Shown here piece by piece: positions 21,134 through 58,605 of a stretch of 64,000 nt of DNA. The DNA is from Cohnella candidum (GTDB lineage: Bacteria > Bacillota > Bacilli > Paenibacillales > Paenibacillaceae), in NCBI RefSeq assembly GCF_003713065.1, contig NZ_CP033433.1:2143001-2207000 (forward strand), given 5' to 3'. Numbering within the stretch: the first letter of the stretch is position 1; every line of letters starts with the position of its first letter. The notes under the pieces are model-generated. The model did not search any database and was not told the origin of the DNA. It was given only the letters and a program-made list of their open reading frames with translations. The position numbers were made by a program, and so were the translations under genes.

Positions 21134-21320
21134 AGTTATTGCTTTAGAACACTAACTTGAGCGAATTCGCGGTTAACCCCCTCAAATTATTGCTTACCAA
21201 CACTAACTCGGCGCCTCAACTATCACTTTCAGGGGAAATACGCCATTTTAGTGTCCAAAAGCAATAAAAACCGTTCAAATCGCCCCATCTCCTCGGAGTT
21301 AGCGTCGGAAAGCAATAACT
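21134..21320. repeat. Four-unit intergenic element, family A (24-bp units)
   Basis: Four 24-bp copies at 21134-21157, 21185-21208, 21246-21269 and 21297-21320; the first two are direct, the last two inverted. Consensus AGTTATTGCTTT-N3-ACACTAACT; unit 1 matches units 2 and 4 at 20 of 24 positions. Each unit is itself semi-palindromic (AGTTA...TAACT). Centres are 51, 61 and 51 bp apart, so the whole element is symmetric about 21227. No coding potential is seen. Two other elements in this window (29731 and 51211) share the geometry with different unit sequences. The function is unknown. Confidence 0.85.
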
Positions 21321-29667: not shown

Positions 29668-29699
29668 AAAAAGGCGGAACCGTGTGGTTCCGCCTTTTT
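29668..29699. terminator. Bidirectional terminator
   Basis: AAAAAGGCGGAACC, loop GTGT, GGTTCCGCCTTTTT: a perfect stem with A-run and T-run on opposite sides, between the convergent DUF4127 and GNAT genes. Confidence 0.9.
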
Positions 29700-29730: not shown

Positions 29731-29915
29731 AGAAATGCAAAAGTGCATTTTTTTGAGCTGAATCTGTCCATCCGAGGCAAATAGGTGCAATTCTGCAGGA
29801 ATTTCGTTGCGTGACTGCTCGTACGCTCGTTTTGCCCCGAAATACATGTAGATTTACATCTATTGCGCCCCGTTCGAATAGCGCTTTTGAAATAGATGCA
29901 CATTTGCAGGAATGG
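29731..29915. repeat. Four-unit intergenic element, family C
   Basis: Four units with TGCA-N4-TGCA type cores at 29736-29747, 29786-29797, 29847-29858 and 29897-29908 (TGCAAAAGTGCA, TGCAATTCTGCA, TGTAGATTTACA, TGCACATTTGCA). Units 2 and 4 share AATAG(A/G) before and GGAAT after the core; unit 3 fits better inverted. Centres are 50, 61 and 50 bp apart. No gene is seen between 29700 and 29964. The spacing equals that of the elements at 21134 and 51211. Confidence 0.75.
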
Positions 29916-51210: not shown

Positions 51211-51399
51211 AATAGCAGGAAAAAGTCCCGCTAATTCACTTCAAATTCCCACTTTCTCCGTATTAGTGGGAAAAACTCCAACTAAATGTATGCTGTATGG
51301 GGTTTGACCAACAAACGTGCCATATTAGTGGGAGCTTTTCCTGCTATTTTCGGTTGGGACGCCTTTTCGCCAGATTTAGTTGGAGCTTTTCCCGTTATT
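51211..51399. repeat. Four-unit intergenic element, family B (25-bp units)
   Basis: Units at 51211-51235, 51262-51286, 51324-51348 and 51375-51399; the first two are direct, the last two inverted. Consensus AATAGCAGGAAAA-N2-TCCCNCTAAT. Unit 1 matches inverted unit 3 at 22 of 25 positions, and unit 2 matches inverted unit 4 at 21 of 25. Centres are 51, 62 and 51 bp apart, the same geometry as the element at 21134. The last unit ends 16 nt before the stop of the small membrane-protein gene. Confidence 0.85.
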
Positions 51400-58504: not shown

Positions 58505-58605
58505 CACCTCTTTCGGTAACCCGGCCGCCTTAGAAACTCCATCGTTTCCTTAGGCCCGAGGTTTTGCGTCCTCGCTTTTCAGCAAGTTTGCCTTTTCGCT
58601 TCGGA
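58505..58605 (-). promoter_or_regulatory. Cyclic di-GMP-I riboswitch (GEMM-I)
   Basis: The minus strand carries the GEMM-I signatures in order: GGCAAAC, a hairpin CTTGCT-GAAA-AGCGAG with the conserved GAAA tetraloop, GGACGCAAA, CGGGCCTAAGG, a variable stem-loop, then GGCGGCCGGGTTACCGA. Spacing and order fit the class I c-di-GMP aptamer. The terminator at 58465 forms the expression platform. Its downstream gene is a diguanylate cyclase. Confidence 0.9.

Follow-up and report, generated by a model that had tools for sequence, protein, structure and literature searches.

Arrays in the window

The window, meaning the whole stretch of 64,000 nucleotides analysed here, contains three arrays of four short repeated units, each array with a unit sequence of its own (families A, B and C; Table 1). 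The layout proposed in the initial annotation for the family-A array, two direct units followed by two inverted ones with centres 51, 61 and 51 bp apart, is confirmed, all four units starting where expected. The semi-palindromic formula given for these units is matched fully by unit 1 and approximately by units 2-4. The two sister arrays, reported at 29731 and 51211 as sharing the spacing, do have the same layout, with distances that are nearly rather than exactly equal (50/61/50 and 51/62/51). In a layout search without any sequence requirement, the three arrays score 108, 107 and 89, and the next-best place of the window scores 73; the top score among 1.39 Mb of shuffled DNA is 73 as well. 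The family-C array is preceded by the terminator-like hairpin of a plus-strand gene, and a search of its far side for such a hairpin found none.

Table 1. Coordinates of the arrays and neighbouring features in the window
Feature	Position	Strand	Description
Four-unit array, family A	21134..21320	.	187 bp; flanked by two minus-strand genes
Family-A array, unit 1, AGTTATTGCTTTAGAACACTAACT	21134..21157	+	24 bp
Family-A array, unit 2, direct	21185..21208	+	51 bp centre to centre from unit 1
Family-A array, unit 3, inverted	21246..21269	-	61 bp centre to centre from unit 2
Family-A array, unit 4, inverted	21297..21320	-	51 bp centre to centre from unit 3
Terminator-like hairpin	29668..29699	+	Belongs to a plus-strand gene
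Four-unit array, family C, unit approximately GATGCAAAAGTGCATCTATTT	29733..29911	.	Centres 50/61/50; convergent genes on either side
Four-unit array, family B, unit approximately AATAGTGGGAAAACCTCCCACTAA	51211..51399	.	Units at 51211, 51262, 51325 and 51376; centres 51/62/51
c-di-GMP-I riboswitch	58512..58602	-	83.3 bits (Rfam)

Copies in the host genome

The host genome is a single contig of 5.29 Mb, in which the arrays occur as dispersed copies. BLAST with each of the window arrays led to 38 loci that were examined, six further weak places being left out. Thirty of them are four-unit arrays (11 of family A, 12 of family B and seven of family C), while the other eight comprise a degenerate array (L006), a direct array (L038) and six places that look like chance. 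An additional, partial family-A array lies at L078. The array finder, which like the gene caller and the terminator finder is a purpose-written script, needs four similar units and so misses degenerate arrays such as L006, with its three direct units, and the partial L078. L006 (G000:C1, about 359678-359820) is a family-A variant whose three direct units are spaced at 51 and 61 bp, a fourth not being clear. L038 (G000:C1, about 1710350-1710780) consists of tandem direct repeats of about 51 bp, in which a GTTGGAGCAGTTGAGTTACTC type is mixed with a family-B-like CGGGAAAAAGTCCCGCTAG unit; it looks as though the word of the array had switched midway. The clean order of direct and inverted units is the usual one, with the reserve that, among the 23 own-genome arrays of families A and B, seven (L008 and six of the 12 family-B arrays) have one outer unit that fits the family profile better when reversed. 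This ambiguity is ascribed to the pseudo-palindromic nature of the units.

In 400 kb sampled at spread-out places outside the window, seven arrays score at least 86 (L114, L115, L117, L122, L123, L131 and L132), and none does in shuffles of this sample (one shuffle per stretch); simple scaling from 7 per 400 kb suggests about 90 arrays per genome. The spacing was then left free over 464 kb of the genome (outer spacing 33-71 bp, inner start-to-start distance 40-81 bp). Nine of the ten places scoring at least 86 have an outer spacing of 50-51 bp and the tenth one of 60 bp, and shuffles, one for each of 20 sampled stretches, gave no place at or above 86. The bins of this search separated unequal spacings, and one array (L122, 51/50) that was missed thereby was found in a later scan. 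Four of the nine 50-51-bp places are all-direct arrays. The seven arrays of the 400-kb sample likewise include direct ones, with the same period and other sequences; for example, L114 has six units at 51 bp, L123 four, and L132 five at 50 bp.

Spacing geometry

Spacing was compared in 79 arrays from Cohnella, Paenibacillus, their relatives and a second family of the order, without near-identical pairs; most were found by their likeness to families A, B or C, and the set is thus not a random sample. The finder admitted outer spacings of 47-55 bp and a wide inner range. Within these limits the layout is conserved to about 1 bp: of the 158 outer spacings in the 79 arrays, 157 measure 50-52 bp and one 49 bp, and of the 79 central spacings 77 measure 61-63 bp, the two others being 60 and 67 bp. 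Rerunning 11 loci with outer limits of 44-58 bp gave the same result. Family A is spaced at 51/61/51 from start to start, with one-base exceptions, and family B mostly at 51/63/51 (centres 51/62/51), and the centres of family C lie at 49-51/61-62/50-51. A set of 24 family-B arrays from Cohnella and Paenibacillus measure 187-190 bp and have near-random spacers. In none of the 51 arrays tested was a fifth unit found 44-69 bp outside the array.

The central spacing equals the outer spacing plus about 10.5 bp. A point some 5 bp to the right of each unit centre would therefore fall on an even 51-bp lattice. At 10.2 bp per turn all units would face the same side of the helix; at 10.5 bp per turn, each step of 51 or 61.5 bp is 0.14 turn short. 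Chance spacing, or single units scattered at random distances, is for the most part not what was found. A reserve comes from the 39 noncoding 50-52-bp repeat places in nine sample sets, of which 13 have two units only, three have three, 13 have four and 10 have five to 18. Some of the two-unit places (L147, L149, L202) are halves of arrays seen elsewhere with four units.

Unit sequences and their constraint

The interior of the unit varies from family to family. A common frame, TAR-N12..17-YTA, is present in 19 of 24 unit families, compared with 1.35 expected from shuffled letters, with the qualification that it was first noticed on part of the tested families and is partly post hoc. In 11 of the 24 it takes the form TAR-N15-YTA, with a span of 21 bp, and family A is among the five families that lack the frame. 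On average, arms on the same side of the unit, left or right, resemble one another.

In four groups of dispersed homologous copies, spacers are two to three times as diverged as units (0.062 in units against 0.193 in spacers, 0.125 against 0.358, 0.172 against 0.389, and 0.189 against 0.407 per site). Between such copies, 0.4-1.5 spacer indels are counted per pair, as opposed to 17-38 spacer substitutions. The alignment of 25 family-B arrays displays four unit blocks amid near-random spacers. Lower unit divergence, measured against the spacers of the arrays, and the scarcity of spacer indels indicate that units and spacing are kept while the spacers drift. A feature of multi-site protein-binding elements is thereby found, as both unit sequence and spacing are more constrained than the intervening DNA.

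The symmetry of the units appears at the level of the array. Over the 79 arrays, the match between the two arms of a unit is 6.282, compared with 6.383 when arms are swapped among the units of the same array (p=0.996). Arms swapped across arrays match at 4.378, and 0/500 such shuffles reach the observed value, overall and in family B. Within the own-genome families alone this across-array excess is not found (p=0.84 for B, 0.88 for A and 0.14 for C), so that the evidence for array-level symmetry comes from other species and from contrasts between families. This pattern fits a common half-site specificity, whereas local pairing would not be expected to produce it. To note, the arms of one unit match slightly less well than arms of the same array, as though perfect palindromes were avoided.

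Genomic position and turnover

Of 34 own-genome arrays given to the gene caller, 33 were classified, L066 having dropped out. In none of the 33 does the overlap with a called gene exceed 30 bp, in agreement with the intergenic position first assigned. Twenty lie between codirectional genes, 12 between convergent genes and none between divergent genes, the context of one being undetermined; for intergenic regions of at least 200 bp, the corresponding numbers are 57, 11 and 10. The arrays are thus placed near gene 3' ends. Ten flanking proteins, eight of them with a Pfam match, have no function in common.

Two genes were followed through other genomes, psd (present in 37 genomes) and mqo (in 36), with 30 loci compared for each. 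An array of at least four units lies within about 650 bp of the psd 3' end at five of 30 loci of the genus, the own locus included (L223, L224, L228, L234 and L245), with unit sequences that differ; L246 has a two-copy repeat only. At mqo, an array is present at the own locus only (1/30). The region past psd is a possible hot spot for arrays. As presence at these orthologous sites is uneven, no single copy looks important. Five family-A copies (A2) share their spacers, the similarity ending at or near the outer units. Their edges differ between pairs: L009 and L010 share about 25 extra bases on the right, and four of the five share about 35-38 extra bases on the left. Families A and B gave no match at E 0.1 on the plasmids or phages searched, and the exact family-B unit pattern was not found in viral contigs. 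It would seem that whole arrays are gained and lost as units, but are held to their form for as long as they are resident.

Occurrence in other genomes

A search of species-representative genomes with one exact family-B unit pattern returned 18 loci. All 14 in Cohnella and Paenibacillus lie within four-unit arrays, and the remaining four (Hufsiella, Neobacillus, Anaplasma and Pseudomonas) show no array and are taken as chance. A profile built from 25 family-B arrays, and partly trained on genomes that it then matched, finds matches in 137 of 295 genomes of the family, the own genome included (E <=0.01, some matches lying near this limit), belonging to 12 of 19 genera. Among the matches listed, nearly the whole model is covered; the survey scored eight candidates per genome, so that match numbers are not copy counts. 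At L091 (1690-1930), a second array, of direct repeats with a period of about 52 bp (TAAGTAAACCACGACTACTTA), lies just past the family-B array.

A lag scan, in which a place is counted when 17 of 20 bases recur after a given lag and some counted places are coding (e.g. L199:10102 in G042), found 13, 4, 14 and 8 places at lags of 50-52 bp in four genomes of the same genus (39 in total), compared with means of 0.27, 0.30, 0.31 and 0.10 per other lag. In two other families of the order, 2 and 4 places fall at lags 50-52. No such place was present in seven samples of 64-100 kb (G086, G064, G066, G089, G041, G051 and G039); G086 and G089 carry family-B arrays elsewhere, and the lag scan thus misses diverged arrays. 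Two arrays from another family of the order (L198 and L202) consist of two direct and two inverted units, spaced at 52/62/52 and built from an unrelated unit word. Two genomes of the same genus, G009 and G023, have direct arrays in which 10-18 units follow one another every 50-52 bp (L150:12342-13225, L155:12073-12794, L157:1137-1664 and L160:12439-12961).

Alternative explanations

A structured RNA, in which the units would pair 1 with 4 and 2 with 3, or 1 with 3 and 2 with 4, or would each form a hairpin, is quite improbable despite some signal in the alignments. On the alignment of 25 family-B arrays, each of these pairings has a covariation score above column shuffles, the observed score being reached in 0/500 shuffles for 1:3/2:4, 4/500 for 1:4/2:3 and 15/500 for hairpins, and among the own-genome arrays 1:4/2:3 ranks first of the three possible two-by-two groupings of the units in 7.5 of 12 family-B and four of seven family-C arrays. 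The column-shuffle control, however, leaves relatedness in place, and tests inside arrays point the other way: direct neighbours are the most alike, being best in 23.2 of 52 arrays as compared with 12.2 for 1:3/2:4 and 16.7 for 1:4/2:3; arm-level compensation is absent over 79 arrays; and in 19 unit groups one-sided changes number 581 and compensated ones 25, none exceeding the shuffles. Covariation is positive by column shuffling and negative in these other tests, and the pairing of unit 1 with 4 and 2 with 3, suggested at the outset as an alternative, is not supported. A 1:3 and 2:4 pseudoknot, an idea formed by eye, was initially unsupported and then strong by column shuffles over the 25 arrays; since that pairing is not the best one inside arrays, its signal is put down to relatedness. 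At gathering score, Rfam has no match for the arrays, and its only match in the window is the riboswitch of Table 1. Terminator-like hairpins give evidence in both directions. One lies before the array at 22 of the 42 gene ends running towards arrays; for 12 of the 20 ends without a preceding one a terminator-like hit runs into the array or sits inside it, which speaks for the RNA reading, both counts being without shuffle control; in L008, the T-run used by the finder is the start of unit 1. Speaking against it, the hairpin of at least one facing gene precedes the array in 21 of 31 cases, and that of every facing gene in 15 of 31; since shielding on every facing side is limited to these 15, the RNA reading is slightly more probable, and the protein-docking reading slightly less so, than it otherwise would be.

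A non-autonomous mobile element is a more serious candidate, albeit a rather unlikely one. Units 1-2 and 4-3 would be its two ends, with two recombinase sites each, and the geometry would be a requirement of the transposition complex. Spreading would account for the dispersed copies and for their location at 3' ends; the five dispersed A2 copies, whose homology stops at or near the outer units, and the uneven presence at psd and mqo are in line with it, and elements of the Tn7 or Mu type, which have two sites at each end, show the same unit order. Nevertheless, the A2 edges are not constant from copy to copy, units are constrained even in the most similar copies, and families A and B are without plasmid or phage match. 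The Y1 transposase (PF01797, the only transposase family sought) has no match in the own genome, the central spacing is the same across families with unrelated units, and the direct arrays do not have two ends. A mobile origin is compatible with the protein-docking model set out below. Plain minisatellites produced by replication slippage are extremely improbable: direct arrays of 3-18 copies do occur in the same genomes, but lags 50-52 hold 39 places in four same-genus genomes, some of these places being coding, where other lags average 0.10-0.31 each per genome, and inverted arrays, in which the spacers have diverged at a fixed length, are left unexplained by slippage. Known REP/BIME elements, with a RAYT as the agent of their spread, share with the arrays palindromic units of 20-25 bp, an intergenic position near 3' ends, the grouping in arrays and the many copies. 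Their identity with the arrays is nonetheless very improbable, as PF01797 has 0 matches in the own genome while 5/14 control genomes are positive, the GTAG or CGTC end tag is generally missing from the units upon inspection (with the exception of L136, which has GTAG), and alternating unit orientation is not seen in the arrays. This reading already fails two or three defining features.

Proposed mechanism

The proposal that conserved geometry with diverging sequence marks a family of protein-binding or DNA-architectural elements is supported by the 79 arrays and the 137/295 genomes, the putative family of elements spanning one bacterial family and reaching another. With a confidence a little better than even, each array is taken to be a DNA-level docking site for a putative sequence-specific protein. 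The best reading is that of dispersed, quickly turning-over half-site arrays for a putative DNA-binding protein, which would bind the units, join the four sites in one complex and act through that complex on the chromosome rather than on one neighbouring gene. Each unit, of about 21-24 bp, is a pseudo-palindrome with two half-sites about two helical turns apart, which a dimer would bind. Four units with centres at 51/61.5/51, mostly in forward-forward-reverse-reverse order, offer eight half-sites of fixed geometry on about 190 bp, and in the direct versions the unit is repeated every 51 bp or so. Held in a fixed register, the four units may assemble one complex. The half-site specificity would drift between arrays and species, the geometry of the complex staying fixed. 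As many unit sequences coexist in one genome, either several proteins or a loosely specific one would be needed. This counts against the reading, and so do the missing array-level symmetry inside single own-genome families, the lack of the TAR...YTA frame in family A, the loose unit orientation, the uneven presence at psd and mqo, and the flanking proteins without a common theme. By analogy with what has been suggested for BIMEs, for example, the complex might act at gene ends as a boundary for transcription or supercoils, a role that is guessed from the fact that the arrays sit at gene ends and not at divergent promoters.

More tentatively, and with less than even confidence, the arrays may represent a kind of chromosomal element that at least two families of one order share. 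Its layout, with eight half-sites placed on a 51-bp lattice and exactly four units if inverted, would be the conserved and selected trait, its word would drift freely, and putative architectural proteins would diversify their specificity within one genome. Repeat families are usually defined by sequence, whereas these arrays are defined by geometry, and sequence-based repeat and RNA-family searches consequently miss them. If a protein complex fixes this geometry, the arrays would provide a handle on Gram-positive chromosome organisation at gene ends, as well as on the drift of DNA-binding specificity under a constant complex shape.

Comparison with known systems

A literature search, with most subscription journals beyond its reach, returned no description of these arrays. 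Several known systems resemble them in part. The ends of transposons Tn7 and Mu carry two direct transposase sites each, inverted between ends. Unlike these, the arrays have no cargo between their ends, keep a fixed central spacing and have direct relatives, with the proviso that a transposase was sought only as PF01797. Intergenic minisatellites of the MIRU/VNTR type are tandem repeats of about 50 bp, as are the direct arrays, but the latter keep one period across unrelated sequences and are accompanied by inverted arrays of four units. With CRISPR arrays they share semi-palindromic repeats, of about 24 bp, and spacers, of about 27 bp; here, in contrast, half of the repeats are inverted, the units number four and the central spacer is longer.

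No known kind comes closer in size, position and number than REP/BIME elements. Binding of gyrase and IHF has been reported for BIMEs, and that of DNA polymerase I for REPs (PMC2817692); the phyla with reported GTAG and CGTC repeats include Proteobacteria, Cyanobacteria and Chloroflexi, Paenibacillus and Firmicutes not being named in that text, and CGTC repeats are likewise described as having no dedicated Y1 transposase (PMC3733652). The arrays resemble REP/BIME elements in their intergenic position, outside called genes in all 33 cases, and in assembling short palindromic units into higher-order arrays. They differ in that their 51/61.5/51 geometry is independent of sequence.
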